Assembly (NCBI RefSeq): GCF_017939745.1
Contig: NZ_JAGKQQ010000001.1
Span: 7,641,299-7,705,298, forward strand
Direction: 5' to 3'
DNA from: Gemmata palustris
Lineage (GTDB): Bacteria; Planctomycetota; Planctomycetia; Gemmatales; Gemmataceae
Length of the DNA stretch: 64,000 nt
Positions 37,288 to 58,770 of the stretch are shown here, piece by piece. Both the position numbers and the translations under genes were made by a program. The notes under the pieces were generated by a model. The model was given only the letters and a program-made list of their open reading frames with translations, did no database searches and was not told the origin of the DNA. How positions within the stretch are numbered: the stretch's first letter is position 1; every line of letters begins with the position of its first letter.

Positions 37288-37359
37288 GCACCGGTCGTCT
37301 ACGGAGTAAGATACCGCCCCGTCAGGGCGGAGAAGACGGTGCAAGTCCGTCCCGGTGCG
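37288..37359 (+). tRNA. tRNA-like gene, Asp(GTC)-like, non-canonical D and T loops
   Basis: A 72-base cloverleaf can be drawn: acceptor GCACCGG with CCGGTGC (7 of 7 pairs), D stem GTCT/AGAT, anticodon stem CCGCC/GGCGG with loop CCGTCAG (anticodon GTC), variable AGAA, T stem GACGG/CCGTC, loop TGCAAGT, and G as base 73, the Asp-type discriminator. Departures from normal: the D loop ACGGAGTA is short and atypical, position 33 is C rather than T, and T55 is G. It may be a divergent functional tRNA or a tRNA-like element. Confidence 0.6.
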
Positions 37360-37361
37360 CT

Positions 37362-37400
37362 GCCCCGTTCGTTTAACGAGTAAGACGCCTGGTCTCATAA
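37362..37400 (+). tRNA. 5' half of a split tRNA-like gene, Met(CAT)-like
   Basis: GCCCCGT (acceptor 5' strand), TC, GTTT-AACGAGTA-AGAC (D arm) and then gcctggtctcataa run up to an anticodon loop CTCATAA (anticodon CAT). The sequence then departs from any tRNA. The matching 3' half is at 58556-58605. It follows the Asp-like unit by two bases, so both belong to one tandem array. Confidence 0.6.
37387..37400. repeat. attL candidate (14-bp direct repeat, left copy)
   Basis: The sequence gcctggtctcataa is identical to 58556-58569. Flanking bases differ on both sides (c/t here, a/a on the right). It covers the 5' anticodon stem and anticodon loop of the split tRNA-like gene, a known kind of integrase target. 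Confidence 0.7.
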
Positions 37401-37744
37401 TGCGGGGTGAGGTGTTTTCGTCATCGTCTGAAATGCGTGCGAAGTGCTGTGATTCGTGGGTTTTCGCTCGTTTCCCGAACATCTCTCGAAACGTCCAATA
37501 GTGCCCCTAAATGCACCTCAGCGGTAGTAATTACTACCGGCCTCCAGAGCAGCAAAACGAGTTGTCAAAGACCGTCAGCGTGGGTTTCCTTCCCACACAC
37601 GATAACCCCGCCGGTGAGTCGAACACCGAAGTGCAACCGATTCGGGTCTCCTGTTGGTCGCCTAATTCTGAAGGCCCATCAGTCTCGCCGCACGTCGCTT
37701 CCAGCTCCGCTGCTAGCCAGCGTCGCAGTGCGCGGCGCGGGATG
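37401..37744. other. Left end of the island, no supported gene
   Basis: Sequence just inside the left boundary shows no credible frame. The open frames here end in the receiver-domain remnant at 37745. Confidence 0.5.
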
Positions 37745-37998
37745 AGCCGGTGCCGTTCCAATGTAATCCTGATGGACCCGGGAATGCCCAGACTCAACGG
37801 GCTGGAAGCGATCCGCTGGATTGGAGGGCGCACATGGGGCAAAGGAACGATCATCATTGCGCAGACGAGCGGGGCCGGCAGAACGCCCGGATCGGTCGCA
37901 CGAGGCTTGGTGCGACGGTTACCTAGTCAAACCTGTGAATCGCTCCGATCTGTAGAAACTGCTAGCGGACCTGAGCGGGTCGCGTGCTCAGGTGGGGC
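37745..37998 (+). pseudogene. Response-regulator receiver domain remnant
   Basis: The translation NVILMDPGMPRLNGLEAIRW contains the phospho-acceptor Asp of a receiver domain. The end of a receiver domain, CDGYLVKPVNRSDL, follows in a different frame near 37909, including the conserved Lys-Pro, and is cut by a TAG in place of a codon before KLLADLSG. The N-terminal third is absent. It resembles the receiver domain of the hybrid kinase at 44.1 kb in the same island but is not identical. It overlaps the 3' end of glgC on the other strand. Confidence 0.6.
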
Positions 37999-39223
37999 CG
38001 TTCACGATCGTGTCCTTGGCAACGCAAGTGACCCCGCCCTCACTCACCCCGAACCCCCTCGACCGGTCCTCGTCCGCGTCACATCCGACACGGCCCCCCG
38101 GCAGAACCTGTACTCCCTTGTCCAGTATCGCCCGGCGCACCTCGGCACCGGGGCCGACCATCACCCGGTCGAACAGGATGCTGTCCTCAACGACGGCTCC
38201 CGCTCCGATGCGGCAATCGAACCCGATCACCGACCCGCGCACCCAACCGGCCGATACGGCTCCGTTCGCAAAGATGTTGTGCCGCGCGCCGGTGGACGGG
38301 CGATCCGGTGGTTCGGGTACGACGGCCACGCGCGGCGGCGGTGAACCGGGTTGAAAGCTGTAGATGGGCCAGGTCCGGTCGTACAGGTCCAGTCCGGGCG
38401 GGTCGGCCAGCAGGTCCATGTTCGCCTGGTAGTACGCGTCGACGGTGCCCACGTCCCGCCAGTACCCGTGTGCCCCGGTCCCGCGCCCCGAGAACGTGAA
38501 CGCGCGGATCGGCTCCCGGCCCATTATCTGGGGCAGGATGTGGTGCCCGAAGTCGTGCCCGGGGTCCGCGCACTCGGCGTTCTTGCGGAGCTCGTCGATC
38601 AGGAACCGGGCGGTGAACACGTAGATCCCCAGGGAGGCCAAGCAGTTCTCGTTGTCGCCGGGAACCGGCGTCGGCACCTCGGGCTTTTCCTGGAACCCGG
38701 TCACCCGTGCGTCGGGGTCCACCTCGACCACCCCGAACTGCCCGGCGGCTTCGGCCAAAGGAACCCGGAGCGTGGCCATTGTAGCCGGGCCGCCGTGCTC
38801 GCGGTGGAAGGTCAGCAGGCGCCGGTAGTCCATCTTGTACACGTGGTCGGCCGCCAGAACGAGGACGTATTCGGCCCCCGAGCGTTCGACGGAATACAGA
38901 TTTTGATAGACGGCGTTGGCCGTGCCGAGGTACCAATCCTCGGTCACTCGCTGCTGGGGCGGGGCGATGGTCAGCGACTGGCGGAACTCGGGGTGGAAGA
39001 ACCGGGACCACCCTTGGGTGACGTGGTGCTCCAAACTGAGCGACTTGTACTGGGTCAGCACGAGGATGTTGAACAGTCGGCTGTTGATGCAGTTGGACAG
39101 CGCAAAATCGACGATGCGGTACATGCCGGCGAACGGTACGGCGGGCTTGGCCCGGTCCCGGGTCAACGGTTCCAGACGGGTTCCCTTGCCCCCGGCCAAG
39201 AGAATCGTCAGCACGTCACTCAC
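37988..39223 (-). CDS. glgC: Glucose-1-phosphate adenylyltransferase
   Basis: The enzyme makes ADP-glucose from glucose-1-phosphate and ATP, the committed step of bacterial glycogen synthesis. The 411-residue protein has LLAGGKGTRLEPLTRDRAKP at the N-terminus (nucleotide binding), FALSNCINS, AADHVYKMDY (metal-binding Asp), FQEKPE, HGYWRDVGTVDAYYQANMDL (typical of GlgC), and a C-terminal left-handed beta-helix with regulatory-type residues. All key motifs appear intact. No other glycogen gene (glgA, glgB) adjoins it. It is the outermost cargo gene of the island on the left. Confidence 0.95.
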   Translation of the reverse strand: MSDVLTILLAGGKGTRLEPLTRDRAKPAVPFAGMYRIVDFALSNCINSRLFNILVLTQYKSLSLEHHVTQGWSRFFHPEFRQSLTIAPPQQRVTEDWYLGTANAVYQNLYSVERSGAEYVLVLAADHVYKMDYRRLLTFHREHGGPATMATLRVPLAEAAGQFGVVEVDPDARVTGFQEKPEVPTPVPGDNENCLASLGIYVFTARFLIDELRKNAECADPGHDFGHHILPQIMGREPIRAFTFSGRGTGAHGYWRDVGTVDAYYQANMDLLADPPGLDLYDRTWPIYSFQPGSPPPRVAVVPEPPDRPSTGARHNIFANGAVSAGWVRGSVIGFDCRIGAGAVVEDSILFDRVMVGPGAEVRRAILDKGVQVLPGGRVGCDADEDRSRGFGVSEGGVTCVAKDTIVNGPT

Positions 39224-39857
39224 AACATCCTCTTTTCCACCGGGCGACTTTACGACTTAGCAGGTGAAGGCGTGAAACGCGCCAGGGCTTCACTGCGCCG
39301 ATGACCCGAGCGCCCAGCGGAGCCATGCCCGTCAGCGGGTGTCGGCACCGTCCCGGAAGTCGTCGACGACCAGTACCGAAAGAGGGACCGAAGCGCCCGA
39401 AGTGTACGCGGTCGGGGACATTGATCTACTCGCATCGTCAGTCCGGATGAGCGGACGTTAGGTGCGAGGTACCGGCGGCATCTGGAGCGGGTAACATGTG
39501 GTTATTGTACCCGGGGCGTCGCGGGTCCGAGTGGGAGAATCTGCCGCATTCGTTCGGCGAACCGGTGGCGGCATCGCCTGCGGGATGTACATCTTGTGCG
39601 GTTGACCGAGCCGTCCGGCTGCCGTTCCGTGTGAAGCGACGGTGTCACTTCGGTTCAACATGCACCGCCAGTAAGCGGTATTCGACTATATCCACCCATC
39701 TGCGATTCGGGGCTCCCCATTTGCTACACTCCGGGCGACCCGCTCGAACTGTCTCGGCCCCTCATACAAGGAATGCCGCAGCCGGTACCGGGCGGGTCGC
39801 CACGCCGGCTAAGGACGAGGTCGGCGGTCGGGATGCAGATCGGTCCGGGGGATTCTG
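39224..39857. other. Intergenic region without a supported gene
   Basis: Between glgC and the TIGR03067-like gene nothing protein-like is seen in six frames beyond short spurious ORFs, and no strong hairpin was found. Confidence 0.5.
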
Positions 39858-40310
39858 ATGTACAACTTCATGCTCGCCACCGCAGTTGCGTGCTTCGCCG
39901 TGGTATCGCCGGCGTTTGCGGAAGACGCCAAGGGGCCGGACGCCAAGTGCCTCGACGGGGCGTGGACGGTGGTGTGCTACGAGAAGGGCGGCGAGGCCCA
40001 GACCGAGGCCAAGGGGATGACCGTCAAGGCCGAGAACGGCACCATCACGTGTTCGGGCAAGGACGGGAAACCGGCCCTGACCATGAAGGTCGTGATCGGT
40101 CAGAACGGCACCGTGCAGGTGACCGAAGTCGGTACCGACACGAGCGCACCGGCAACTCCGGCCCGCGCCGGGGTGTACGTGCTGACCAACGATTTCCTCG
40201 CCATCAGCTTGAACACGGAAGCGGCTCAGGCCGGTGCGGACAAGGCGACGACCGATGCCGCGAACAAGAAGCGGTGCAGCATCGTCCTGAAGCGCGACGG
40301 CGCGAAGTAG
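39858..40310 (+). CDS. Small secreted TIGR03067-like protein
   Basis: The 150-residue product begins MYNFMLATAVACFAVVSPAFA, a Sec signal peptide. The mature part, with LDGAWTVVCYEKGGEAQTEA and MTVKAENGTITCSGKDGK, follows the TIGR03067 pattern common in planctomycetes (a short beta-rich, probably lipocalin-like domain). Two Cys residues (CLDG, VVCYE) and a later TCSG could form disulfides. Function is unknown. Confidence 0.65.
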   Translation: MYNFMLATAVACFAVVSPAFAEDAKGPDAKCLDGAWTVVCYEKGGEAQTEAKGMTVKAENGTITCSGKDGKPALTMKVVIGQNGTVQVTEVGTDTSAPATPARAGVYVLTNDFLAISLNTEAAQAGADKATTDAANKKRCSIVLKRDGAK

Positions 40311-40417
40311 TCGAACGAGATCGGGTCGGAGCGGCTCGGGAAGTCCCCGGGCCGTTTTTCGTATCTTGGGGTGGGACCGGGTGTCTCTCGGACCCCAGTG
40401 TGCGTGAAGAGGTCGAT

Positions 40418-41296
40418 ATGGGACTGCGCGGAGTGTGGGCGGTGGTGTGGGAAGCCGGGGACGCGTGGCTGGACGACCGGGCTCCGCGGATCGCGGCGGC
40501 GCTCGCGTTCTTCACCGCTCTGTCTATGGCCCCGCTCCTGGTCATCGCGCTGTTGATCGCCGGGGCCGTGTACGGGGCCGAGGCGGCGCGGGGCGAGATC
40601 GCCGAGCGGCTGACCGGGCTGGTCGGGGAGCAGGCGGCCGCCGCGGTCGAGGTGATCGTGGCGAACGCGCGCGGCCCGGGCACCGGGGCCGTTGCCGTCG
40701 TGGTCAGCCTGATCACCCTGTTCATCGGGGCGACGGGCGTGTTCGTCGAGCTGCAGGAGGCACTGAACGACGTGTGGAAGGTGCGACCGAAGCCCGGCCG
40801 ACCGCTCCGCACCTTCGCCCGGGCGCGACTCACGTCGCTCGTGATGGGGATCGGGATCGGGGTCCTGATGCTAGCGTCCCTGGTCCTGACGACGGTGATC
40901 GAAGCGGTCGGGCAGTACGCCGCGAGTACGGTGGCGGGGACCGCGACGGTGGTGCAGGTGGTGAACCTGGTCGCCCTGTTCGGGGTCGAGGCCCTGCTGT
41001 TCGCCATGATCTTCAAGTTCTTACCCAACGCGAGGCTGGGGTGGCGCGACGTGGGGATGGGTGCCCTCCTCACCGCGGTCCTGTTCACCATCGGGAAGTT
41101 CCTGGTGGGCACGTACCTGCGGTACACGGGGTCGCTATCGGGGTTCGGTGCGGCGGGTTCGTTGATGGCTTTTTTGGTGTGGATCTACTTCTCGGCTATG
41201 GTGCTGGTGTTCGGGGCCGAGGTGACCAAGGTGACGGCCCGGCGCGCGGGTCGGGCCGTCGTGCCGACCGATAATGCCGAGGTGATTCGCGTCTGA
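40418..41296 (+). CDS. YihY/UPF0761 (BrkB-like) family membrane protein
   Basis: This 292-residue protein has about six membrane helices. The N-terminal DDRAPRIAAALAFFTALSMAPLL and later ELQEALNDVWKVRP and SLSGFGAAGSLMAFLVWIYF are hallmarks of the YihY/BrkB family, including the conserved polar GAAGS segment before the fifth helix. Its biochemical role is not settled; some relatives were first called ribonuclease BN by mistake. It follows the TIGR03067-like gene by 107 bases. Confidence 0.9.
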   Translation: MGLRGVWAVVWEAGDAWLDDRAPRIAAALAFFTALSMAPLLVIALLIAGAVYGAEAARGEIAERLTGLVGEQAAAAVEVIVANARGPGTGAVAVVVSLITLFIGATGVFVELQEALNDVWKVRPKPGRPLRTFARARLTSLVMGIGIGVLMLASLVLTTVIEAVGQYAASTVAGTATVVQVVNLVALFGVEALLFAMIFKFLPNARLGWRDVGMGALLTAVLFTIGKFLVGTYLRYTGSLSGFGAAGSLMAFLVWIYFSAMVLVFGAEVTKVTARRAGRAVVPTDNAEVIRV

Positions 41297-41529
41297 GGGC
41301 CCCCTCGGAGTCGAACGCGGGCGCGCGTCCGGGTCGTCCTCGGCCCGTCGCTGCGTCTCGCGCGAGCCGCGACCCGAGCGGCTGGGTCGCGCTTCTTCCA
41401 CTCGAATGTCGCGCCCTTGCCCGCCGTGGCCGCATAAAGCTCGCTCGATAGCGGCCCTCGAATCGAATACCCGCACATGATTCGGCCGGTACCAGACTTT
41501 AAATCCGTTCATCTTTCGGTCCTGATCGA

Positions 41530-42348
41530 TCACGCGCTCATCTCGGCAGCCAGTTTTGCGAGCGCCTCGTGCTCGATCTGGCGCACCCGTTCGCGGGTCA
41601 GGCCGAGGTGAATTCCGATCTCTCTGAGCGTTTTCGGTTCCTCGTCGTTCAGCCCGAACCGCATGCGCAGGACGCTCCCCTCGCGCGGGTCCATCTTGTC
41701 GAGCAGGTAGAGCACCTGCTTCAGGTCGTCCGATTTCCCCATCTCGGACTCGGGCGTATCGGCCCGGGAGTCCATGAGCATCTCTTCGATGCTCCACCCG
41801 GTCTCGCCCTGGTCCGCTTGCGCGCCCGTACTCGCCACACGGAGCGCTTTCTTGATGACGGCCAACTTCTTCTTCGGCAGGCCGAGGAACTTGGCGATCT
41901 CGTCCTGGGTGGGCGGGCGCCCGAGGTCGTCGCTGAGCTGGTTGGTGGCCCGGCGCCACTTGATGAGCAGTTCCGCCATGTACGCCGGGATGCGGATCGT
42001 CTTGGCGGTGTTCACGATCGCGCGCTTGATGCTCTGCTTGATCCAGTAGCTCGCGTAGGTCGAGAACCGCGTGTTCATCGAGGGCTCGAACCCCTCGACC
42101 GCGCGCAACAGGCCCATGTTCCCTTCGGACACGAGGTCGTCGAGGGCGAGGCCCTTACCGGTGTACCCCCGCGCAATGTTCACGACGAGGCGCAGGTTGG
42201 CGCGCACCATGTGGTCGCGGGCCGGGGCGTCGCCAGCCAACACGCGCGCCCCGAGCTCGCGCTCTTCGGGGGCCGAGAGCAGCGGCGTGTGATCGAGTTC
42301 GCCGAGGTACGCGGAGAACGCGGTGGGGGGACGTGCGGGAGTGCTCAC
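41530..42348 (-). CDS. Sigma-70 family (group 1/2) RNA polymerase sigma factor
   Basis: The 272-residue protein has sigma regions 1.2 to 4.2: AFSAYLGELDHTPLLSAPEE (1.2), NLRLVVNIARGYTGKGLALDDL and FSTYASYWIKQSIKRAI (2), a region 3 with IRIPAYMAELL, and region 4 LREIGIHLGLTRERVRQIEHEAL. Region 1.1 is missing, as in group 2 alternative sigma factors. GTG 42348 is preferred because an AAGGA-like site is just upstream and the longer frame (to 42498) has an unlike N-terminus. As island cargo it could redirect host transcription. Confidence 0.85.
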   Translation of the reverse strand: MSTPARPPTAFSAYLGELDHTPLLSAPEERELGARVLAGDAPARDHMVRANLRLVVNIARGYTGKGLALDDLVSEGNMGLLRAVEGFEPSMNTRFSTYASYWIKQSIKRAIVNTAKTIRIPAYMAELLIKWRRATNQLSDDLGRPPTQDEIAKFLGLPKKKLAVIKKALRVASTGAQADQGETGWSIEEMLMDSRADTPESEMGKSDDLKQVLYLLDKMDPREGSVLRMRFGLNDEEPKTLREIGIHLGLTRERVRQIEHEALAKLAAEMSA

Positions 42349-42588
42349 AGGGTTCCTTGAGGGGCGATCACGTATGCGGGAGTGCCGGTGCTGGGAATCG
42401 TACACCGTTCCTCGTCGAGCGGGACGCGAAATCGCCCTATTCGGGAGGTCCGAACGGAGCCACATTTCTTCCCTGCGGGCGCTTCCATTGCCCCGCAAGA
42501 ATCGGCGCGGCGAACGGGCACCGCACGCGCCCGATCACATCCTTCCGCCGGCCGGAGGTGCCGCCGAGTCGGTCCGACCCAATCGCTC

Positions 42589-42741
42589 TCACGAGTAGCC
42601 GTATCTCTTGATGCCCGGGGCGTCGGGCGTGGAGCACAACATCTGGCGGCCGCAACAGCACGGCCACCCCTCCCGGGCAAAGCGGGCCAGGTCGTCATAC
42701 GTGAACGGCCCGATCCGGCCGCACCGTTCACACAACGACAC
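42589..42741 (-). CDS. Small zinc-ribbon peptide (CxxCG...GWPxCC type)
   Basis: A 50-residue product, starting at GTG 42741, reads MSLCERCGRIGPFTYDDLAR then FAREGWPCCCGRQMLCSTPD and ends KRYGYS. The CxxCG and WPCCCG elements are shared with proteins at 48528 and 49622. It starts 12 bases after the stop of the sensor kinase at 42754, so it is probably the last gene of that operon. Function is unknown; zinc binding is inferred. Confidence 0.6.
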   Translation of the reverse strand: MSLCERCGRIGPFTYDDLARFAREGWPCCCGRQMLCSTPDAPGIKRYGYS

Positions 42742-42753
42742 GAACGGCGACGG

Positions 42754-44016
42754 TTACGGCCCTTCGCCAAGCGTCAATGGGTGGGGGGCAACGAGAGCCG
42801 CGGCGGCTCCCGTTGTGCAGGGGAGCAGGAGGCGAAAAGTGCTCCCGCGGTCCGGCGCGCTGCGCACTTCCAGGGTACCGCCGTGCCCGTGCGTGACGCC
42901 CTGGACCACGGCCAACCCGAGCCCCCGGCCGGTGAACTTCGTGGTGAAGAAGGGGTCGAAGGCCTTCTCGATGACGCTCGCGGACATCCCGCACCCCGAG
43001 TCCTCCACCTCCAGGAAAACGGCCATCCCGCTCGGGGCGCCGGCCGGAACCGGACCGGTGCGCACGGTAACGACGCCCCGGTCCGGCCCGAGGGCCTCCG
43101 AAGCGTTGGTGACCAGGTTCACGACGACCTGGCGGAGCTGGGTCGCGTCGCCCTCGATCGGCGGGAGGTCCGGCGCCAGTTCGTACCGGAGTTCGGTGCC
43201 GGCCGAGACCGCCGCACTCAGTCGCCCGCTCGTTTCCCGCACGAGTGTGGAAAGGTTCACGGGCTGGATCACGAACTGGCCCTTACCGGCGTAGGCCAGG
43301 ATCTGCCCCACGAGGTCCGTGGCCCGCTGCGCGTTCCCCGAGACGAACTCGAGCATCGTGGCCGCGGGCGAGTCGATCGGCAGCGCGTTTTGGACCAGCT
43401 CCGTGAACCCGAGAACCGGGGTCAGCATGTTGTTCAAGTCGTGGGCGAGTCCCCCCGCCAGGACGCCCAGGCTCTCCATTTTCTGCGCCTGAAACATTTG
43501 GGCCTGCAGCGCCTGGCGCTCCCGCTCGCCGCGCTCGATGGCGTCGATGAGCTCGTGCTGCCGCACCGACGAGACCATCAGGGCCTCGTTCATGGCCGTT
43601 GTCCGGTGCCGGAACGCCGCGACCTCGGTCGCGTCCGTGACCTGGATCACGACCCCGACCGGGATCTCGTCGGCCCCGAGGACGGCCCACATCGAGTACG
43701 ACCAGTGGGCCGGCACTACTTGGCGGTGTTCCTGCTCCGCCAGGCTCTCGGGTTCCCCCGTCCGGAACACGCGGTCGAGGAGCGGCAGGCACCCGTTCGC
43801 GCCCCCCTCGGGCACGGCCTCGGCGAACGGGTGACCGATGAGTTCGGCGGACGACTTCCCGGCGAGGCGCCCGAACGCGGGGTTGAAATAGCGCACGATG
43901 TGGGCGGCCCCTTCGACGGCCACCATCGGTTGGGGGGAGCGCTCGGAGAAGTACCGGCACAAGCGGGACAGCTCGAACGCATCCGCCCGGACGATCGGCA
44001 CCACATCGGGACCCAT
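42754..44016 (-). CDS. PAS-containing sensor histidine kinase
   Basis: The 420-residue soluble kinase has a PAS domain (about residues 15-130, VAVEGAAHIVRYFNPAFGRL), a linker coiled coil, then the HisKA box LAGGLAHDLNNMLTPVLGF (His near residue 200) and HATPase motifs VVNLVTNASEA (N), VEDSGCGM (G1) and GRGLGLAVVQG (G2). The HDLNN form of the H-box is typical of NtrB-like kinases. No membrane helix is present, so it senses an internal signal. The PAS part closely parallels that of the neighbouring hybrid kinase, indicating duplication. It is the third gene in the KaiC operon. Confidence 0.9.
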   Translation of the reverse strand: MGPDVVPIVRADAFELSRLCRYFSERSPQPMVAVEGAAHIVRYFNPAFGRLAGKSSAELIGHPFAEAVPEGGANGCLPLLDRVFRTGEPESLAEQEHRQVVPAHWSYSMWAVLGADEIPVGVVIQVTDATEVAAFRHRTTAMNEALMVSSVRQHELIDAIERGERERQALQAQMFQAQKMESLGVLAGGLAHDLNNMLTPVLGFTELVQNALPIDSPAATMLEFVSGNAQRATDLVGQILAYAGKGQFVIQPVNLSTLVRETSGRLSAAVSAGTELRYELAPDLPPIEGDATQLRQVVVNLVTNASEALGPDRGVVTVRTGPVPAGAPSGMAVFLEVEDSGCGMSASVIEKAFDPFFTTKFTGRGLGLAVVQGVTHGHGGTLEVRSAPDRGSTFRLLLPCTTGAAAALVAPHPLTLGEGP

Positions 44017-44093
44017 GACGTGCTCCGGGTTCGGGTCGCGCCCGCTCCCGGGCCTCGGGATTCATGACTCCAGGGCGAACTCCCGCGCTTCCG

Positions 44094-45719
44094 CTAGGGT
44101 CGGGGTAGTTCGGCAATCAGTTTCGTGAGCACATCCGGGGCCACCGGTTTGACCAGGTGCCGGTCGAACCCGGCCTCGTGCGTGCGCCGCCGGTCGTCCT
44201 CGGCCCCCCAACCGGTCAGGGCCGCCAGGAGCGGCGCCGCGCCCCACGGCTCCGCGCGGATGCGCCGGGCCGCCTCGTACCCGTTCACCCCGGGCATCCC
44301 GAGGTCCATCAGGACCAGTTCCGGGCGGAACTCCGCCGCCGCGCTCACGCCCGCGGCCCCGTCGCCGGCCGTTCGCACCTCGTGGCCCATCAGTTCGAGC
44401 ATCTCAGCGAGCGATTCGGCCGCGTCCCGGTTGTCGTCCACAACGAGAACCCGGCGCCCCGGGCCGCGCGGGCTCGGGGCCACCGCCGGCGCCGGCTCGG
44501 CCGCGGCGGGCTCCGCCAGGGGCAAGCGGACGACGAATTCGCAGCCCGTTCCCGGGCCGTCGCTGTGGGCCTCGACCCGGCCCCCGTGCAGTTCGACGAA
44601 CTCCTTGACCAGCGACAGCCCGATCCCCAGCCCGCCCTGTGCCCGGTGCCACACGGTGTCCACCTGCACGAAGACGTCGAAGATGTGGGGCAGGTGAACG
44701 GCGGAGATGCCGATCCCGGTGTCCCGGACCCGCACCACGACCCCGGCCCCGTCGCGCTCGGCCGACAGCCGGATGTGCCCGCCCCGCTCGCTGTACTTGG
44801 CGGCGTTGTTGAGCAGGTTCAGGAACACCTGGGCGAGCCGGGTCGGGTCGGCATCCAGGATCAGGGGCTCGGGCGGTAGGGCGCAGGTCAGTTCGTGCCC
44901 CTGGCGCTCGATCAGCGGGCGACTCGCCTCGGCGCTTTCCCGCACCACCGACGCGAGGTCCACCCGCTCCCGTCGGAGTTCCAGTTTGCCCGTGGCGATC
45001 CGGCTCACGTCGAGCAGGTCGCCCACCAGCCGCACCATCTGGTTCAACTGGCGCGCCATCATGTCCCCCGCGCGCGCCACCGCGCCCGGGTCCGTGCCGG
45101 CCAGTTTGAGGAGTTGCACCCCGTTACTCAGTGCCGCGAGCGGGTTGCGCAGTTCGTGGCTCAGAACCGCGAGGAAGTGGTCCCGCGCGCGGACCGCGCT
45201 CTGGTACCCGGCGCCGAGCGCTTCCGCGGCCCCCGTGAGCTCGTGCTGGCGCGCCGCGGAAACGAGCAGAACCTCGTTCATTGCGGCCGCTTGTTGGCGG
45301 TAGACCGCGGTCTCGGTCGAGTCCGTGACCTGGATCATGACCCCCGCGGGGCGCTCGTCGCCCCCGAGGATGGGCCAAACCGCATACGACCAGTACACGG
45401 GGCCGGGGAGGGTGTGACGGTGCTCTTGTTCGGCCAGGTTCTCGGGAACCCCGGTGCCGAAGACGCGGTCGAGCAGGGCGACGCACCCGTTCCCCGCGCC
45501 TTCCGGAACGGCCTCGGCGAACGGCCGCCCGATCAAATCGGTCCGCTCGCGCCCGACGAACCGGGCGAAGGCCGGGTTGACGTAAATCACGACGTGCGTG
45601 AGGCCCTCGACGGCGACCGTGGGTTGGGGGGAGCGCTCGGACAGGTACCGGCACAGGCGCCGGATCAGGGGCACGTGCCCCGCGGTGTCGAGTCCGAGTT
45701 CGACATCCATCGCGCTCAC
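44094..45719 (-). CDS. PAS hybrid histidine kinase with receiver domain
   Basis: This 541-residue soluble protein has a PAS domain (residues 20-135), HisKA box HFLAVLSHELRNPLAAL near residue 190, HATPase motifs FLNLLNNAAKYS, VRDTGIGI and GGLGIGLSLV, a Pro/Ala linker, and a C-terminal receiver (RVLVVDDNRDAAESL, phospho-acceptor in LVLMDLGMPG, Lys in HLVKPVAPD). The PAS region is nearly parallel to the kinase at 42754, which has no receiver. It starts one base after the KaiC stop, implying translational coupling. Confidence 0.92.
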   Translation of the reverse strand: MSAMDVELGLDTAGHVPLIRRLCRYLSERSPQPTVAVEGLTHVVIYVNPAFARFVGRERTDLIGRPFAEAVPEGAGNGCVALLDRVFGTGVPENLAEQEHRHTLPGPVYWSYAVWPILGGDERPAGVMIQVTDSTETAVYRQQAAAMNEVLLVSAARQHELTGAAEALGAGYQSAVRARDHFLAVLSHELRNPLAALSNGVQLLKLAGTDPGAVARAGDMMARQLNQMVRLVGDLLDVSRIATGKLELRRERVDLASVVRESAEASRPLIERQGHELTCALPPEPLILDADPTRLAQVFLNLLNNAAKYSERGGHIRLSAERDGAGVVVRVRDTGIGISAVHLPHIFDVFVQVDTVWHRAQGGLGIGLSLVKEFVELHGGRVEAHSDGPGTGCEFVVRLPLAEPAAAEPAPAVAPSPRGPGRRVLVVDDNRDAAESLAEMLELMGHEVRTAGDGAAGVSAAAEFRPELVLMDLGMPGVNGYEAARRIRAEPWGAAPLLAALTGWGAEDDRRRTHEAGFDRHLVKPVAPDVLTKLIAELPRP

Positions 45720-51005: not shown

Positions 51006-51037
51006 AAGTGCGCTCAGGCGCTTCAGTGCCGTGCGGT

Positions 51038-51835: not shown

Positions 51836-52224
51836 TGCTTTGCGATCCACTCGAGGCGCTGCTCCAGTTCCTCGAACTTGGCTTTGAGTTCCGCGATCTC
51901 CATCACCTTCAGCCCGTGGCTCAGGATCTCACTCGCAGCCCGCAGCTTGATGCCCTCGGTCTCGCTCCCCAATAGCTCGCGGAGCGTTTTGGCCGCGGCG
52001 CCCATCGCGTCGGCCAGTTCGCCACAGGCCCGGCCGATCATCTGGCCCCGGAGGTCCGCGACCATCGCCCGGAACTGCGGGTTCTGCATGCGGCGCCGGG
52101 TCGTTCGTTCCGCCACTCCGGTCGCTTCGGCGGCTTCCTTGAGCGTCTTCCCGGCTGCGATCTGCGCCGCCAGCGCCTCATCCGCCCCGGACCGGCCCTC
52201 ACGCTTGTTCTTGTCGCTCGCCAT
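51832..52224 (-). CDS. Phage-type HTH protein (terminase-small-subunit-like)
   Basis: The 130-residue protein has an N-terminal helix-turn-helix (AAGKTLKEAAEATGVAERTT RRRM, about residues 24-46) with a recognition helix ending in Arg-rich residues, then long helices ending in a coiled coil (VMEIAELKAKFEELEQRLEW). This layout is common in phage small terminase subunits and related DNA-binding proteins of planctomycete mobile elements. No large terminase is in the window, so a packaging role is doubtful; a regulatory role is equally possible. Confidence 0.6.
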   Translation of the reverse strand: MASDKNKREGRSGADEALAAQIAAGKTLKEAAEATGVAERTTRRRMQNPQFRAMVADLRGQMIGRACGELADAMGAAAKTLRELLGSETEGIKLRAASEILSHGLKVMEIAELKAKFEELEQRLEWIAKQ

Positions 52225-52442
52225 CAGCTGTCTTCCTTTCCGGCTGATGGCATTGCGTTTTCGGCCCCCGCGCGGTCGGCCGCGATAACGTCTTGTTCCA
52301 GCTCCAGCACCGACTTACCGGCCGCTGCGAGCACGGTGAGCATCAGCTGCACGTTGATCTCCGCACCGCGCGCGAGGTCCGCGACCAGCGACTCGTAAAC
52401 CCCGATTGTCGTCGCGATGGTGGTCAAGGCTGGTGCCCTCAT
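52224..52442 (-). CDS. Small helical protein, mobile-element operon
   Basis: The 72-residue product starts MRAPALTTIATTIGVYESLV; a GGGAGT site lies 8 bases upstream of the ATG. It is helical (ADLARGAEINVQLMLTVLAA) without a recognised motif. Its stop shares one base with the next gene's ATG. It may be a partner of the HTH protein. Confidence 0.45.
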   Translation of the reverse strand: MRAPALTTIATTIGVYESLVADLARGAEINVQLMLTVLAAAGKSVLELEQDVIAADRAGAENAMPSAGKEDS

Positions 52443-52528
52443 GGTGTCTACTCCCATCATCGGCGCGATCCCGGAATGCGCGAGGGGGAGAAGTGCCGGT
52501 TCGCAAAGTTCGGGTACAGATCTGCACC

Positions 52529-52732
52529 CTAATTTTTGGCCGGCTTCGGTGGACGGGGTGGGAGCTCGCGGAGCGGGCGCTCGAGGCCACTGCACCGGTA
52601 CCCGCATCGGTCGCACCGGCGGTACCGGACTACCATGTTCGCGGCCGGGCGCATGGTCTTGTACACGATCAGCGGCGCGCCCTTGCACGTCACGCACGTA
52701 AACGCCGCGGGCGGGGTCTCGGGTTCGGTCAC
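52529..52732 (-). CDS. Small zinc-ribbon protein
   Basis: The 67-residue product, GTG start, reads MTEPETPPAAFTCVTCKGAP with a second pair RRCDRCGYRCSG, so two CxxC knuckles about 30 residues apart and a Pro-rich end. The pattern suggests a zinc ribbon. It is 87 bases upstream of the 52442 start. Confidence 0.5.
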   Translation of the reverse strand: MTEPETPPAAFTCVTCKGAPLIVYKTMRPAANMVVRYRRCDRCGYRCSGLERPLRELPPRPPKPAKN

Positions 52733-52813
52733 GGTGGAATCTCGTCGGTATTGCTAGTCGGTGTTCGTCAGGATCGCGGCGGCCAGATAGTTCGCTGTCA
52801 CTGGCAGGACGAT

Positions 52814-52966
52814 TCAACCGGGTTCGCGCCCGCGGTCGGGGATCGAGCAGTTCGCCTCAGCACGGTTCGCGTACCGGCCGGCGCGGACCCAGCGGCCACT
52901 CGGGAGAAGTCGCCAAACCTGGAACAGCGTCGGTTGCGGGACTGTCTTGGCGGGTGTTGCGACCAC
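52814..52966 (-). CDS. Possible small protein
   Basis: A 50-residue frame from GTG 52966 reads MVATPAKTVPQPTLFQVWRL then LPSGRWVRAGRYANRAEANC, which looks protein-like. The start and ribosome site are weak. It lies just downstream of the primase-helicase gene. Confidence 0.35.
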   Translation of the reverse strand: MVATPAKTVPQPTLFQVWRLLPSGRWVRAGRYANRAEANCSIPDRGREPG

Positions 52967-53005
52967 AGTAATAATCTCGTTGCGATTTTTGTTAGAGCGA
53001 TTGCT

Positions 53006-53115
53006 GGCACGGGTTGGCACGCGTGCCGGACTAACACAGCGCCTATATGAGTCATTGAGTGAAAAGAGTTTCTTCCAATGGCTGCGTTGGATTGGCACGC
53101 GTGCCAACCCGTGCC
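53006..53115. repeat. Inverted 22-bp repeats with internal palindromes (iteron-like)
   Basis: The 22-base segment at 53006-53027 is the exact reverse complement of 53094-53115. Each contains the perfect palindrome ggcacgcgtgcc. The second copy lies inside the 3' end of the primase-helicase frame. Position beside the replication gene suggests an origin or an operator. Confidence 0.55.
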
Positions 53116-55690
53116 ACGTCTTCTTCTCCCCAGTCATCACGCGGGCGCAACCCGATTCCCCGGTACAATCTGACCCGCAGGCCATTCTTTCTTGGCTGTG
53201 TTAGAACGATGTGAGGCTTTGCGGCGCGGAGATCGCGCCCGAACAGGTTCTCGGCCCCGGGCTCCCGGTTGCGCTGGTCGTTCCAGTTCTTCCACGACTC
53301 GAACAATTCGGCAACGTGCACCTCGCATTCGGGGCCGACGGCACAGCGCTCGCGGATGAAGGCCCGAATGGGCGACGAGAGATCCTCGAGCTCGCGCTGG
53401 TAGTGGTCCGCAGCCTCGTTCCTTGTGAACGACATGCCCTGGCAGCGGAGTCTGACGAACCCGCGTGCGGCCCAGGCCAGGATCGAGGGCATTTCGGCCG
53501 CGATCTTCGCTTTCAATCCCTTGTCCTCTTTGCCGAGAAATGAGTTCGGTAGGCTCAGGACGTGGAACCGACTGGCGAGCGCCCCCGAGGCATCGGGCAG
53601 GCGTGGGATCTCGTTCGTGGCGAGAATGAACCGGACCTTTAGCCGCGTGGTGATACGCGGCTTGTTCTTCCGGTTCACCGTCTGCGGATCTTCGCCCGAG
53701 ATCGACAACAGACGTTCGACCACGTTCGCGAGATCAGTGCGGCCCGACAGACGCGCGTCGGGTACGACGGCGATGCGTTTACCTAGGAGCGATTCGAGGC
53801 CAAAGTTTTCGCCCAAACTGGCGAAAGTTGTGGACGCGACGTTGTACGCCCCCACCAGTTCCCCCAGCACGTGCAACACCGTCCCTTTGCCGCTCCGCGG
53901 CGGACCGACAAGCAGCAGGATTTTTTGGGCGCTCGTGTCGGCACTGAGTGCGTAACCGAGCCATTCCTGCAGCCCCAGGATCGAAGGGGAGTCGCCGTTG
54001 AACCATTCCTTGAGGCACTACATCCACAGGGTGGGTTCCGATTGTTCCTCGGCCGGCACAGTGAAGGGCAGCGCGTTGAAGGTGAATAGCCGCGGCGTTG
54101 GAGGCTCGAACGGTCCGCGGCCGGCCGCGATGTCACCGATCGTGAATAACCCGTTGGGTGCGGCCACTACTTCGGTCACGCGCTGGGATTCGTCGCCCCA
54201 CAACCAGAACGGCGCGTCGATCCCGCTGTCGGGATGATTAACCAAGCCGGACAGATTCACCCGCACGTCGCCTTTGGTCTTGCCCGTGACCGGGAAGATG
54301 GTCGGCGGCTTGAGTTCTTTTTTCCCGTCGGATGCCGCTTCCGCTGCGGCTTTACGAGCAGGCATGTCCGCGACGAACACTTCTCGACAATGGCGAGCAA
54401 TGCGCGCGTCCAGGTCCGAATCCGGGACCGGGCGCCACGCCGTCTCCCACGCGTGGTACTCGTCGCACCACTGAACGATCGTCGGGTGCCCTTCTGGGGT
54501 GCGTGACGCATCCACGAGCAGACGGGCGAGACGGAACGGGTCATTCCACTGCTCACCTTCTTCGGGCTTTGGGATGCAGACTTCGTGCGCGGCATCCTCC
54601 AGAGTGCTGCCAGCTGGAGCGGTTGCAGCATCAGCACGGTACGCGCTACCGACCGTCGGCCGGGCGCGCGGCTGGTAGGTATCTTTCGTGCTCGCAATCG
54701 CTTTGGCGATCGTCCGCGATCGGTATTCAGGGCGCGTGGTCCACTTCTTGCGCTCGCCCAGTTTGGACTGGTTGAACACAGACTCTATGCGGCCGGCGTC
54801 CTTATCGAACCAGAATGCGAGGTGGCAGCATAGGGCCAGGTCCGCATCGGATTGTGACTTGTAGGCACTGGCTTCGCCGTCGTAAAGCGCCCGGATCTTG
54901 GACCCGTTCTTCGGGTTCTCGAGCATGAGGCGGAGGACGTCACACCCCGCGGGTGGCACATGGGTGCCCGCGGTCGCGCGCCTGGATTCGGGTTTCGGCG
55001 CAGCGGGTTCAATATCAGGTGCGAGCAGTTCGGTAACAAGCCGTTCGCCCTCGGCCTGGCAATCAGCAACTGCTTCGCCCGCTAGTACCTCAGACGTGAC
55101 CGTGAAGAATCGCCCCCGCGTATAAATCTCGACATCAAGTACCGTGTTCTTGCCGCCCGTCTTGAGCCCCAGCGCATCAAGCGCCGAGGTGAGGTCGGCC
55201 CGGAAGAACAGCTTGTACCCGGTCCCGGTGGGCGAGCGCTCTGCGTAGGTCGGGAACCGCTCGAGCAGGGACCGGCCGAGTGCCGTCATCGAGCCTTGAT
55301 GAAAGCACCCGTCCACGTCCACACCGGACCATCCATCGCCGAGAAAGAAGCCGAGACCGGCGAAGCTGCGTTCACCAGTACCGCCGGCCGAGTCGGATGT
55401 GCCGCGATAGGCCGCAAGCGCGTCCGCAAAGGCGGCCCAAGTGGCCGGGTTAGTGGAGGACGCATTGCGCCCGTCGAGCTGGCGTGGAACTTTGGTCCAA
55501 CGGCCCTGCTTGGGGCTGCGATCCCAGGACCACACACACCAGCGCGCCGCCCGGCGCATCTCGGGGGGATGCCCTTGGGGTCGATGGGGAGCAGCTCCGG
55601 GCGCCCGGCCGTAAGGATACGCGCTTTAAGGTCACGGGCCGCCCGGCGGATCGTGTCATCGTCGCTGCCCGGAGTCGGTTCAACGGTCAT
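53052..55690 (-). CDS. Primase-polymerase/D5-type helicase, interrupted by an amber stop and a frameshift
   Basis: The gene encodes a mobile-element replication protein of about 880 residues. The N-terminus MTVEPTPGSDDDTIRRAARD runs to a run of six C near 55,566, where one base appears missing. The main frame then continues as a prim-pol-like domain (AGLGFFLGDGWSGVDVDGCF, TGTGYKLFFRADL) and a D5_N-like region. A TAG at 54018-54020 interrupts the frame, and coding resumes in the same frame with CLKEWFNGDSPSILGLQEWL and Walker A VGPPRSGKGTV, then a SF3-type helicase ending at 53052. No ATG, GTG or TTG lies between the TAG and the Walker motif, so reinitiation would lose the P-loop. Confidence 0.75.
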
Positions 55691-55852
55691 TACCGGCCTC
55701 CTGGGGCCATGCCCAGCCGGCAAGCGTCGGAGTGTCGGGTATCATGTAAGCACTCTCGGAAACCGTCAGTTTCGTACCTGGCGGTGGATGCTCGGTTGTC
55801 TTGGCGTGCTGGTCGGATTCAGATGACCCGCAGTGGGTCGTCGCATTTCACG

Positions 55853-56095
55853 TCACTTGTAAAACTCAATCACGTCGTTTTGCCGCTTCGTTCGTTTCAC
55901 TGCCTTGATTTCCGGTTGGGGCGTGCGCGCCAGCTCGAAGACCTCGAGCGCGGCCGTAGAGATGCGCCAGCGCGGGCGCTTCGATCGGGCGCCCCGCGAA
56001 ACGTTGACGGCCTTGAGTTCGGCAATCGCGATCCAGGCGAGGACGGTTGCCTGAGAGACACCGAAACGGCGCGCGACTTCGGAGACGGTCAGCAT
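55853..56095 (-). CDS. Excisionase/MerR-like HTH protein
   Basis: The 80-residue protein begins MLTVSEVARRFGVSQATVLA, the start of a winged HTH of the excisionase/MerR kind, followed by a basic stretch (RGARSKRPRWR). Such proteins direct excision with a tyrosine integrase, which is present at 57173. Its start overlaps the upstream gene's stop by a few bases. Confidence 0.65.
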   Translation of the reverse strand: MLTVSEVARRFGVSQATVLAWIAIAELKAVNVSRGARSKRPRWRISTAALEVFELARTPQPEIKAVKRTKRQNDVIEFYK

Positions 56096-56304
56096 GAGGC
56101 CGCCTCCGTCTTCTGATCGCGGATGTAGCCAGCGGCCAACAGCGCCGCACGAATGGCCGGCTCATCGGATTCAGCGAAAACGCGGAACCGATCGACCTTG
56201 ATGTGCGGCACTTGTCCCCGTTCCGCGAGCCGGAACAAGTGGTGCGGAGAAGCGCCAACTCTCAGGGCCGTCACACCCAACATGTGGAACTTGTTGCTGC
56301 TCAT
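56089..56304 (-). CDS. Small MerR-like DNA-binding protein
   Basis: The 71-residue product, MSSNKFHMLGVTALRVGASP, contains HHLFRLAERGQVPHIKVDRF, which resembles the helix-turn-helix plus wing of excisionase-family proteins. It overlaps the next gene (55853-56095). The pair may act together as recombination directionality factors or regulators. Confidence 0.55.
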   Translation of the reverse strand: MSSNKFHMLGVTALRVGASPHHLFRLAERGQVPHIKVDRFRVFAESDEPAIRAALLAAGYIRDQKTEAASC

Positions 56305-56413
56305 GAGCACTCCGGCGTGTGATGTGTGACATCGGACATGACCGGCTAATGGCACGCGGGGTAAAATGGGGGTGGTGAATGAAGAAGTCATTGGGTTCAA
56401 TGTGTGAAATTGC

Positions 56414-57187
56414 ATGAACATCAAGCGAAAATCGAATCGGACCGACGTTACACCACTCTGCGAAGTTGGGAAGGCGGTTCTCACCCGAGACTGGCTCGGA
56501 TTGAGCAGAATAGTGAACAAGAGTTATGGGAAGTGGTTGAACCGGGAGCAGCTAACGGCACTGGTCGCGGACAACGGTTACTCCGATGCCACAGAGGAAT
56601 GGGGGCCGTACCTCGATGGGCGAATGAGGGGCGATTGGCGGAGTGTAGGGGCCATCCAGCGGGGCCAGGTGTTTCAGAAGGCCCACTGCGATCCCCCGCA
56701 ACCGGTGCCCGCGAAACCGGCCGTTGCTGATGTCCCCAAAAGGGCGGTGAAAAAGCGCGTGAAGCGACCGTGCCGAGGGTGTGGCACGAGCCTTGCGAGC
56801 TGTCACCCCTCCAAGCTGACGTGTGGGCCCAAGTGCCGAATGATCGCTTACCGCAAAGGCGCATCATCGGCCTTTGGCCGGCGCAGGTGCTTGTTTTGCG
56901 CGAACTGGTTCTGGTCGAAACGCAAAGCTCAGTGGTGCTGTAACGCTTCGTGCTACGGAAAACTTCTCCGTCGTCGCGCCGCGGTGCTGAGACTTAAAAG
57001 TGACGGCCGTACTTGGCCGGAGATTGCGGCCAGGTACGATGTGAAGTTGCTTGTCCTAAAGAGATGGGCAGTAGGAGCCGTTAAACAACCCCTTAGCACC
57101 TCGTTGTACCAAATCTCGGGTTCACCTGAGAACCGGCACGGGCGACAAAAATGGGGTGCGAGACCCGCTGAACTACGCGACGGTTAA
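56414..57187 (+). CDS. Zinc-finger protein of a mobile element, possibly DNA-binding
   Basis: The 257-residue protein has a helical N-terminal half (KAVLTRDWLGLSRIVNKSYG), a Lys/Arg-rich linker, and two Cys-rich segments: CRGCGTSLASCHPSKLTCGPKCRMIAYRK cut by spacing, and CLFCANWFWSKRKAQWCC...CYGK. The second resembles TRASH/MYM-type fingers. The C-terminus has an HTH-like segment (TWPEIAARYDVKLLVLKRWA). It is divergent from the small MerR-like genes and overlaps the integrase 3' end by 15 bases. Function is not known to me. Confidence 0.6.
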   Translation: MNIKRKSNRTDVTPLCEVGKAVLTRDWLGLSRIVNKSYGKWLNREQLTALVADNGYSDATEEWGPYLDGRMRGDWRSVGAIQRGQVFQKAHCDPPQPVPAKPAVADVPKRAVKKRVKRPCRGCGTSLASCHPSKLTCGPKCRMIAYRKGASSAFGRRRCLFCANWFWSKRKAQWCCNASCYGKLLRRRAAVLRLKSDGRTWPEIAARYDVKLLVLKRWAVGAVKQPLSTSLYQISGSPENRHGRQKWGARPAELRDG

Positions 57188-58405
57188 AGCTCCAGGCCAG
57201 AGCCAGGCGCGCACGTGATCGGCCACGGCACGTAGGCGGGTATCGTCGATGCGCTCGCGGTACACACCGGCCATTGACGAATCAACGTGCCCCATCATGA
57301 GGTTGACGGCCACTTGGTCTTTTGAGTCGCCACCGATCGTCTCGAACGTGTGCCGCAGGGCGTAGAAATTCACGCCATCGCGCCGGATACCGAGGGTACT
57401 GAGGAGCGTCCCGAACTTGTCTTTGATCAAGTCGTAACGGTAGCCGGGCTTCTTTTGGACGACGAACGGGGTTCCGCGCGTCGTCAGAAACACCCGGTTC
57501 GCGTCCTTGGGAGAGGCGGGTTGACGCCGAACCATGATCGAGTCGCGAATCGCCGTGACGGTTTCCGGCCACAGCGGGCATCGGCGCGCGATCCCCGTTT
57601 TCGGCCTAGGGAAGTTGATCCAGCCCTTCTCCATGTCCACCGCGGTGAGAGTCAGCTCAGCGCAATCGGTGTTCCCGAACCCGCAGTTCACCCCGAGCAG
57701 GACCATCGCGCGCAACGTGGGGTCGGCCCGCACGAGCGCTTCGCCGTCGGCGCCCGGGATCATCTTCCCGTCGAGCATCGCCCGCAGATCCTCCCGCTCG
57801 AACATCTTCGACGGGCGCCCGGCGCGGTGCCGTCGTAGGACCGATTTGTCGGGTTTCACGAACTCCGGCCCGTACCGCACCGGGCGCTCGAGCAAAGCGG
57901 AGTCGTAACCGAACTTGAACACTGACTTCGCCCGCGTGATGCTGTTGCCCAACCGCACCGGCCCCCACCGCTTCGCCATCGTCGACCGGAGCTTGGAGAA
58001 ATCTTCGGCCGCGAGATCGTCGACCAGGCGGTTGGACCCGAAGGCCGCGACCAACAGATCGGTTATCAGCTTGTAGTCGTAGAAGAGGTTCGAGCTCAGT
58101 TCCCCGGCCTCGACCTTCCGGAGCTTCGCCGTGAGGAACGCGTTGGCTAGATCCTTGACGGTCAACCCGCCCGGCTTCACCCGCGGCGTGCGGCCCGAGT
58201 GCAGATCGTCCGCCACTGCCTTATACTTTTCCAGCGCGTCCTTCCAACCGTCCCCCTCGACGTGGACGAACTTCCCGTTCACGCGGCGCGCCCAGGCCCC
58301 GAAGTAGTGGATCTTCCCGCGGATCTTCTTTTGCCACGTCCCGGACGCGTGCGGTGTCAACGGGAAGTTGGCGTAGGGTTTCTTCGGTTTGCTGGTTTTG
58401 GGCAT
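57173..58405 (-). CDS. Tyrosine recombinase (site-specific integrase)
   Basis: The 410-residue protein has an N-terminal arm, a SAM-like core-binding region (about residues 95-190) and a catalytic domain. The C-terminal motifs are present: YALRHTFETIGG (Arg and His), then MMGHVDSSMAGVYRERI (His and nucleophile Tyr). The first Arg of the usual ARxSEL motif is not seen; the corresponding region reads NCGFGNTDCAEL, as I recall for planctomycete integrases. Reading leftwards from 58405, it lies 150 bases from the right att repeat, as expected for the element's own integrase. Confidence 0.85.
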   Translation of the reverse strand: MPKTSKPKKPYANFPLTPHASGTWQKKIRGKIHYFGAWARRVNGKFVHVEGDGWKDALEKYKAVADDLHSGRTPRVKPGGLTVKDLANAFLTAKLRKVEAGELSSNLFYDYKLITDLLVAAFGSNRLVDDLAAEDFSKLRSTMAKRWGPVRLGNSITRAKSVFKFGYDSALLERPVRYGPEFVKPDKSVLRRHRAGRPSKMFEREDLRAMLDGKMIPGADGEALVRADPTLRAMVLLGVNCGFGNTDCAELTLTAVDMEKGWINFPRPKTGIARRCPLWPETVTAIRDSIMVRRQPASPKDANRVFLTTRGTPFVVQKKPGYRYDLIKDKFGTLLSTLGIRRDGVNFYALRHTFETIGGDSKDQVAVNLMMGHVDSSMAGVYRERIDDTRLRAVADHVRAWLWPGALTVA

Positions 58406-58555
58406 GTATCACCATCCTCCGCGGCGCAATTGCCGAAACCTGTGTGCTGATGAATTGGTAGTGGCAGAAGTAGTAAAATGAGAATCGTATGGTTAGCGTG
58501 AGGAGCGAAAATTGCTGAAATATAAGCCAGTGCGACTGGTTTTCTCGTACAATAA
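58406..58555. other. Right end of the island, presumed attP arm region
   Basis: Moderately AT-rich non-coding sequence between the integrase start and the right att repeat. It probably holds the integrase promoter and arm-type binding sites. The 5' half of the tRNA-like gene is absent. Confidence 0.5.
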
Positions 58556-58569
58556 GCCTGGTCTCATAA
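58556..58569. repeat. attR candidate (14-bp direct repeat, right copy)
   Basis: Identical to 37387-37400 (gcctggtctcataa). The sequence to its right continues as a tRNA 3' half; the sequence to its left does not look like a tRNA. Confidence 0.7.
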
Positions 58570-58605
58570 ACCGCGGAGATGGGGGTGCAAGTCCCTCACG
58601 GGGAT
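58556..58605 (+). tRNA. 3' half of the split tRNA-like gene, Met(CAT)-like
   Basis: After the att core, the sequence gives ACCGCGG (3' anticodon stem, imperfect), AGAT, T stem GGGGG/CCCTC with loop TGCAAGT, and acceptor 3' strand ACGGGGA. ACGGGG pairs with CCCCGT of the 5' half at 37362-37368, six of seven pairs, leaving an unpaired first position as in initiator tRNA. T stem and loop match the neighbouring Ala-like unit. Confidence 0.6.
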
Positions 58606-58621
58606 CTGGATTTGATGTGTC

Positions 58622-58693
58622 GCACCGATCGTTTAGTGAGTAAGACGCCGCCTTTGCAAGTCGGAGACGGGGGTGCAAGTCCCTCTCGGTGCA
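58622..58693 (+). tRNA. tRNA-like gene, Ala(TGC)-like
   Basis: A 72-base cloverleaf: acceptor GCACCGA/TCGGTGC (7 of 7), D arm GTTT-AGTGAGTA-AGAC, anticodon stem CCGCC/GTCGG (one mismatch) with loop TTTGCAA (anticodon TGC), variable AGAC, T stem GGGGG/CCCTC with loop TGCAAGT, base 73 A. The Ala-specific G3-U70 pair is absent (A3-T70), as are the D-loop GG and T55. It follows the split gene after 16 bases. Confidence 0.55.
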
Positions 58694-58696
58694 TTC

Positions 58697-58770
58697 GCCC
58701 CGATCGTTTAACGAGTAAGACGCCGGCCTTCGGAGCCGGAGATGGCGGGTGCGAGTCCCGTCACGGGGCT
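58697..58770 (+). tRNA. tRNA-like gene, Arg(TCG)-like
   Basis: Acceptor GCCCCGA/ACGGGGC (six pairs, A7-A66 mismatch), D arm GTTT-AACGAGTA-AGAC, anticodon stem CCGGC/GCCGG with loop CTTCGGA (anticodon TCG), and a T stem of GGCGGG/CCCGTC with loop TGCGAGT. The T stem is one pair longer than usual, so length is about 73. It ends inside the 3' end of the HEAT gene (overlap about 10 bases). Spacing from the Ala-like unit is 3 bases. Confidence 0.5.

Follow-up and report, generated by a model that had tools for sequence, protein, structure and literature searches.

The window analysed here (that is, a 64,000-nucleotide stretch of Gemmata palustris, positions 7,641,299 to 7,705,298 of contig NZ_JAGKQQ010000001.1 in NCBI RefSeq assembly GCF_017939745.1, from a host genome of 9.2 Mb in three contigs) contains a tandem array of four tRNA-like units, the second of which is interrupted by an integrative element (Table 1). 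All four lie on the + strand, with the anticodons GTC, CAT, TGC and TCG in that order, and direct reading places spacers of 2, 16 and 3 bases between successive units. The coordinates bear out the original prediction of tandem tRNA-like genes, one of them split, at a spacing of 2–16 bases, and the D-arm type and T loop (TGCAAGT/TGCGAGT) that it gave as common to the units read as described. Among the array units of the window, ARAGORN calls only units 3 and 4; with the Rfam tRNA model (RF00005), units 1 and 2 stay below the gathering threshold, which is passed by unit 3 at 53.9 bits and by part of unit 4 at 31.4 bits. Hereafter G000 denotes the genome of the window, and G010, G015 and G026 denote three same-genus genomes that carry the array.

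A tRNA-fold array kept at one chromosomal locus

Sequence comparison across genomes shows that the units are tRNA-fold genes, retained at a single chromosomal position by four relatives of one genus. A unit pattern (GAGTAAGAN{26,40}GGTGCRAGTCC) was found at 10 places in 4 of 95 genomes of the family, all of one genus, and the reversed pattern at none. Stem covariation was scored in alignment A2, which also served to build the search model R1 and comprises 14 of the 19 known units (G015-5, G010-3a, G010-4b, G009-s and G010-s were left out, and the split unit 2 of G000 is not in it). Within A2, 92.5% of 293 cells are paired and double-sided changes occur at 10 of 21 pairs; the covariation score was reached by none of 500 shuffles, and slid versions of the alignment pair in 38–59% of cells. 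The recurrence of the pattern in relatives with an empty reversed control, together with this covariation, argues against chance. Both sequence-based checks that the original prediction had set (that is, compensatory stem changes among homologues and conservation in relatives) turned out in its favour, the array being kept at the matching locus in G010, G015 and G026. A chance resemblance or an assembly artefact would fit the sub-threshold Rfam scores of units 1 and 2, but is already refuted by copies that covary and stand beside matching neighbours in other genomes, and we give it next to no probability.

Model R1 returned 19 matches in the genus at 59–93 bits, 14 of which were training units and match by construction, and the next matches in the genus, not all of which were inspected, score at most 54.2 bits. 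The 19 include two solitary copies away from the array, one in the genome G009 (G009-s) and one in G010 (G010-s). Across 102 genomes of the order, searched with stricter filters under which weak matches are lost, only G054, G097 and G098 were added; these were rejected as array relatives, their matches being tRNA-Glu with GG and U55, whose scores (57.5–59.5 bits) overlap that of the weakest array unit (59 bits). Virus-borne copies of the window's unit type were not found when viral contigs were searched with the pattern CGAGTAAGAN{26,40}GGTGCRAGTCC (0 matches).

The units are mostly better conserved than the genes that flank them, judging from pairwise identities with G000: 70/72 and 71/73 matching bases in G010 (flanking genes 77–89%), 63/72 and 60/71 in G026 (flanking genes 68–74%), and 60/72 and 60/73 (the latter for unit 4, with 73 of 80 bases aligned) in G015 (flanks 71–74%, the HEAT-repeat gene giving no DNA match). 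The anticodons vary between matching units: in G000, G010, G015 and G026, respectively, position 1 reads GTC, GTC, GTC and GCT, and position 2 reads CAT, CAT, CAA and CAT. Of 19 genomes of the genus, precisely four have the SDR-family gene near the array (E <= 1e-100), and these are the four that bear the array. The TIGR02996 domain of the left neighbour and a closely similar tRNA-Arg in Gemmata sp. IIL30 point to Gemmata or a near relative as the source.

Table 1 Features of the array, the integrative element and the neighbouring genes in the window
Feature	Coordinates	Strand	Remarks
SDR-family gene	34982..36403	+	Beside the TIGR02996-domain gene; from domain scan and genus search
TIGR02996-domain (rpt_mate_G_obs) protein	36382..37263	-	Left neighbour, divergent from the array; homologues adjoin the array in G010, G015 and G026
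Unit 1, tRNA-like, anticodon GTC (Asp)	37288..37359	+	Base 33 is C; A18 G19 / G55 C56; G after the acceptor stem; 90.7 bits with model R1 (unit in training set)
Unit 2, 5' part, anticodon CAT	37362..37400	+	Broken off within the anticodon loop, where the integrative element has inserted; uncut counterpart in G010
Left 14-bp direct repeat GCCTGGTCTCATAA, presumed att core	37387..37400	+	Direct reading
Integrative element, ~21 kb	37401..58555		Bounded by direct repeats; matching site in G010 also occupied
Tyrosine recombinase (Phage_integrase, 6.5e-09)	57173..58405	-	At the right end of the element
Right 14-bp direct repeat GCCTGGTCTCATAA	58556..58569	+	Direct reading
Unit 2, 3' part	58556..58605	+	Runs from the anticodon arm through the base that follows the acceptor stem
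Unit 3, tRNA-like, anticodon TGC (Ala)	58622..58693	+	A3-U70 instead of G3-U70; A after the acceptor stem
Unit 4, tRNA-like, anticodon TCG (Arg)	58697..58770	+	T stem readable as 6 bp; U after the acceptor stem
HEAT-repeat protein, right neighbour	58761..59588	-	Homologues adjoin the array in G010, G015 and G026

Coupled replacement of bases 18 and 55

The 8-base D loop of the units, AACGAGTA, reads A14 A15 C16 G17 A18 G19 U20 A21. A18-G19 is found in 19 of 19 units and G55 with C56 in 18 (the exception having a T-arm deletion), and the T loop reads UGC[AG]A in 16, the others being G010-3a, G015-1 (CGCAA) and G026-4 (UGCCA). The original prediction held that G18-G19 and T55 had been lost, and that these losses were consistent with one another as partners in the contact between the D and T loops. 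G18 and U55 are indeed replaced, and the change is coupled at the contact partners; G19, on the other hand, is present, given that AACGAGTA reads A-G at 18–19, and with C56 also kept the contact looks exchanged (A18/G55). Loss of the elbow was rejected for this reason, as G19 and C56 are retained and G18 gives way to A together with U55 to G.

In the canonical elbow, as described in the accessible part of PMC4810234, base 18 is sandwiched by bases 57 and 58 of the T loop and contacts base 55, while base 19 pairs with base 56. When the G of a UGNRA loop contacts an A from outside, the result is described, in the part of PMC2258182 available, as a composite GNRA tetraloop, and at the level of sequence alone the units hold both ingredients (that is, a U-G-N-R-A loop and an A from elsewhere). 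We suggest that G55-C56-R57 of the UGCRA T loop and A18 of the D loop are likely to form such a composite GNRA tetraloop. Given the fit of UGCRA plus A18 to this motif, the L shape would likely persist without pseudouridine 55.

Coupled replacement of G18 by A and of U55 by G is shown, by base counts in predicted genes, to be widespread in bacterial, archaeal and viral tRNAs. An ARAGORN-based count drew on 1,218 unique calls from fetched loci (64 of them unparsable, and ARAGORN having its own bias). Among 399 G55 tRNAs, the D loop carries AG without GG in 357, AGG in 23, GG in 9 and neither in 10; among 751 U55 tRNAs, the corresponding numbers are 8, 74, 645 and 24, and the eight with AG and no GG resemble misread D arms. 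Under a strict cloverleaf filter applied to four locus sets, AG without GG occurs in 176 of 194 G55 tRNAs versus 0 of 84 U55 tRNAs. A pattern search of 392 genomes of the phylum gave 49 G55 tRNA matches in 28 genomes, 47 of them A-G by eye, and a U55 control in nine genomes gave GG in 100 of 100, also by eye; the pattern searches fixed the D stem as GCTC and R57 A58, which the ARAGORN count did not, and the loci from wider G55 pattern scans are those among the matches listed. Two looser counts gave 87 AG, 9 GG and 6 other for G55 with 38 GG and 1 other for U55, and, where AG was preferred when preceding GG, 74 AG, 5 GG and 11 other for G55 with 7 GG, 4 AG and 1 other for U55; several of the G55 exceptions in these counts do not resemble tRNAs.

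The coupling extends over at least 33 combinations of lineage and anticodon, with lineages assigned by hand from 80 of 118 record titles and contigs that may be misbinned or viral. One of these combinations is the tRNA-Phe of SAR11: each of ten genomes, chosen for holding a G55 match, has one G55 tRNA-Phe (GAA) match, A18 is seen in the distinct sequences of loci L255, L257 and L298, and the search pattern found no convincing second tRNA-Phe, with U55, in those ten genomes (a second match in one of them, G493, has U55 and does not look like a tRNA). In G000 itself, two other G55 tRNAs were found, both also A-G. In another planctomycete family, five contigs (L247–L251, from G292, G265, G250, G279 and G235) hold 14–38 ARAGORN tRNA genes each; on seven array- or G55-bearing planctomycete contigs, 91 of 118 parsed tRNAs combine AG without GG with G55, and 13 more combine AGG with G55. 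The arrays of that family are mostly A-G with G55, and the genomes that bear them also contain ordinary G18/U55 tRNAs.

Several further occurrences were recorded. Among the matches listed, tRNA-Ala and tRNA-Thr with A18/G55 stand on archaeal-titled contigs (L303, L304, L317, L322 and L332). In a tRNA array of G026 (L093, - strand), tRNA-Gly(TCC) (AACAGCA) at 5272–5343 and tRNA-Leu(CAG) (AATTAGGAG) at 4211–4295 have G55; the G000 counterpart of this tRNA-Leu has GG and U55, and the G026 gene is perhaps a recent elbow switch. Pseudouridine 55 is called universally conserved in the available part of PMC4810234, which also lists work on the conserved 18–55 pair in translocation, and a limited search of the open-access literature (subscription papers not being covered) found no description of the A18/G55 swap.

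Origin and role of the units

The window-type units look tRNA-Glu-derived by sequence likeness. Among 84 distinct tRNAs of the genome's own set, tRNA-Glu is nearest to units 2 (taken from the G010 copy), 3 and 4, and all units have in common U8 C9, U11-A24 and a variable loop of 4 bases, which we take to be tRNA-Glu-like traits. The identities first proposed (Asp, Met, Ala and Arg) stand for the anticodons; three of the four bodies are nearest to tRNA-Glu. We suggest that a tRNA-Glu-like gene gave rise to the array by duplication, the anticodon arms changing over time, and that the array is probably transcribed as a single precursor and cut by ordinary tRNA enzymes. A promoter and terminator scan of 37100–37500 found no terminator and a single weak promoter-like site within unit 2, and is uninformative.

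Could these units, much like a small tRNA array, take part in decoding as redundant tRNAs whose elbow is unusual yet works? The A18/G55 elbow is present in otherwise ordinary-looking tRNAs, the anticodon loops are mostly well formed, and three of four GTC units have G, the Asp discriminator base, directly after the acceptor stem (for the remaining one it is a matter of how the acceptor is read). Against this, 7 of 18 parsable units lack U33 (a count with G026-4 read by hand and without G015-5), versus 3 of 47 G55 tRNAs from named genomes, and three units with GCT (Ser) and one with CAA (Leu) anticodons have short variable loops. By the usual identity rules, it also counts against decoding that the Ala unit of G000 lacks G3-U70 and that both TCG units carry U73; moreover, G000 has other tRNAs for each of the array's four anticodons. 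The anticodon changes, the loss of U33 and the Ser and Leu anticodons on bodies with short variable loops indicate that the units are probably not mainstream decoders, and we consider the decoding alternative unlikely, if far from negligible. Given that their anticodons duplicate existing ones and that several decoding rules are broken, the units would probably act as spare or decoy tRNA-like RNAs (against tRNA-cutting enzymes, for example), a weak suggestion that we favour over mainstream decoding with low confidence.

The integrative element bears on another alternative, in which the units are a relic (that is, decaying tRNA duplicates that gene conversion keeps similar and that serve integrative elements mainly as attachment sites). 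The element combines a tyrosine recombinase, direct repeats and a site inside a tRNA-like gene, as expected of tRNA-targeting elements, and the site is reused in G010, where an element with a recombinase 79% identical over 399 residues sits at the matching place in unit 2; unit 2 is probably a landing site for tyrosine-recombinase elements. In G010 the right end of the element brings a 5' half that leaves unit 2 uninterrupted, and an apparent second insertion lies within the unit 4 copy, with units flanking it on either side. The shared insertion site, this second insertion and the damaged units G010-3a and G015-5 speak for a relic; compensatory changes across genomes, the invariant A18-G19 and an identity mostly above that of the flanks point instead to selection on the fold, and we judge the relic explanation doubtful, while allowing it some weight. 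The element also carries, within 37401–58555, GlgC-like, BrkB-like and sigma-70 genes, two histidine kinases, a KaiC-like ATPase and an NrS-1-polymerase-like gene. Elsewhere in the window, an ARAGORN call of tRNA-Ser(CGA) at 22680–22766 (-) falls within an open reading frame where Rfam finds none, and is probably spurious.

Taken together, we propose that the array consists of tRNA-fold units of tRNA-Glu-like origin with a probable composite-GNRA A18/G55 elbow, serving, more tentatively, as spares or decoys rather than in mainstream decoding, and assign this reading a probability of roughly 0.6. Several points weigh against it. With regard to role and origin, the anticodon loops are mostly cognate-like, which fits decoding better than a decoy, and 11 of 18 units retain U33; the closest match to unit 1 is a tRNA-Val from another array, and tRNA-Glu ranks fourth. 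With regard to maintenance, the window's element brings no replacement for the 5' half of unit 2, which is broken in G000; some units decay (the T arm of G010-3a is damaged and the anticodon arm of G015-5 disturbed); and the conservation advantage of unit 4 over the flanks is small in the comparison with G015. With regard to the elbow, the A18-G55 contact is read from sequence only, the counted tRNAs are related rather than independent and come mostly from loci fetched for holding a G55 tRNA, and the G55 set includes its 23 AGG cases (ambiguous, AGG also occurring in the U55 set) besides those with GG or neither.

Wider meaning and known systems

A broader proposition, which we put forward tentatively, is that the A18/G55 composite GNRA is a second natural form of the tRNA elbow with many origins among bacteria, archaea and viruses, which in some planctomycetes marks a parallel and possibly protected tRNA repertoire. 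If so, this second set may go unrecognised by enzymes, nucleases or toxins for which the standard elbow is the cue, because it allows no pseudouridine 55 and offers no G18 to methylate; the cell or its mobile elements would gain a protected tRNA supply, of which the window array would be a chromosomal offshoot. A natural and apparently repeated replacement at 18/55 would show an alternative way to build the elbow, and would open the way to a sharp test of which features are really read by the ribosome, by RNase P, by modification enzymes and by defence enzymes that cut tRNAs. A18 with G55 would also give a simple rule for spotting genuine tRNAs to which standard searches assign poor scores, and, for G000, what was supposed to be a structural loss becomes a structure-preserving exchange.

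The units might alternatively be non-translational aminoacyl donors (for example, for modification of the cell envelope or of peptides), given that they look unfit for decoding and that their bodies keep what we take to be tRNA-Glu-like features and could in principle still be charged. Yet among 22 different proteins scanned from the flanks and the element (not every frame), none was named a synthetase or an aminoacyl-tRNA transferase, and the recurrence of A18/G55 in apparently ordinary tRNAs means that the elbow type alone is no sign of a cell-wall role. The original prediction had pointed to such a role through the non-proteinogenic tRNA-Gly of staphylococci, in which, according to the part of PMC4052509 available, G18-G19 are likewise altered and ordinary translation is thought to be evaded. 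However, those tRNAs carry UU or CU at 18–19 and serve one amino acid with no mixed anticodons, whereas the window-type units have A-G and the anticodons of many amino acids; the analogy was rejected on the 18–19 sequence, the cell-wall lead fits poorly, and we regard the donor alternative as quite improbable.

Bacterial tRNA array units, as presented in the accessible portions of PMC5966550 and PMC12803027, resemble the window array in their tightly packed genes that are redundant with the housekeeping set, and an antidefence role has been proposed for them there. The definition in the former calls for at least 20 tRNA genes at a density of at least 2 per kb, whereas window-type arrays have four or five units (four in the window), are chromosomal and stand among matching neighbours in four genomes; the A18/G55 elbow is not mentioned in those portions. 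Two further tRNA arrays lie in G000, L035 (G000:C1:4522000-4529500) with 18 and L036 (G000:C1:7839500-7846500) with 13 ARAGORN genes, counted per stretch; in both, many bodies are odd (some with short D arms, some with Leu anticodons but no long arm), most of the tRNAs keep GG and U55, and the gene order of L035 is much like that of L093 in G026.

With the UGNRA lonepair triloop, in so far as the available part of PMC2258182 describes it, the units have in common U54 G55 C56 R57 A58 and an outside A18 available for the G; the motif is described there for riboswitches, whereas in the units it would form the tRNA elbow itself. With the canonical elongator tRNA (RF00005), they have in common the cloverleaf, U8 and A14, G19 and C56, the stem lengths, mostly U54 and A58, and tandem genes without an encoded CCA; they differ from it in that A18/G55 replaces G18/U55, that U33 is often lost and that anticodon and body do not match.

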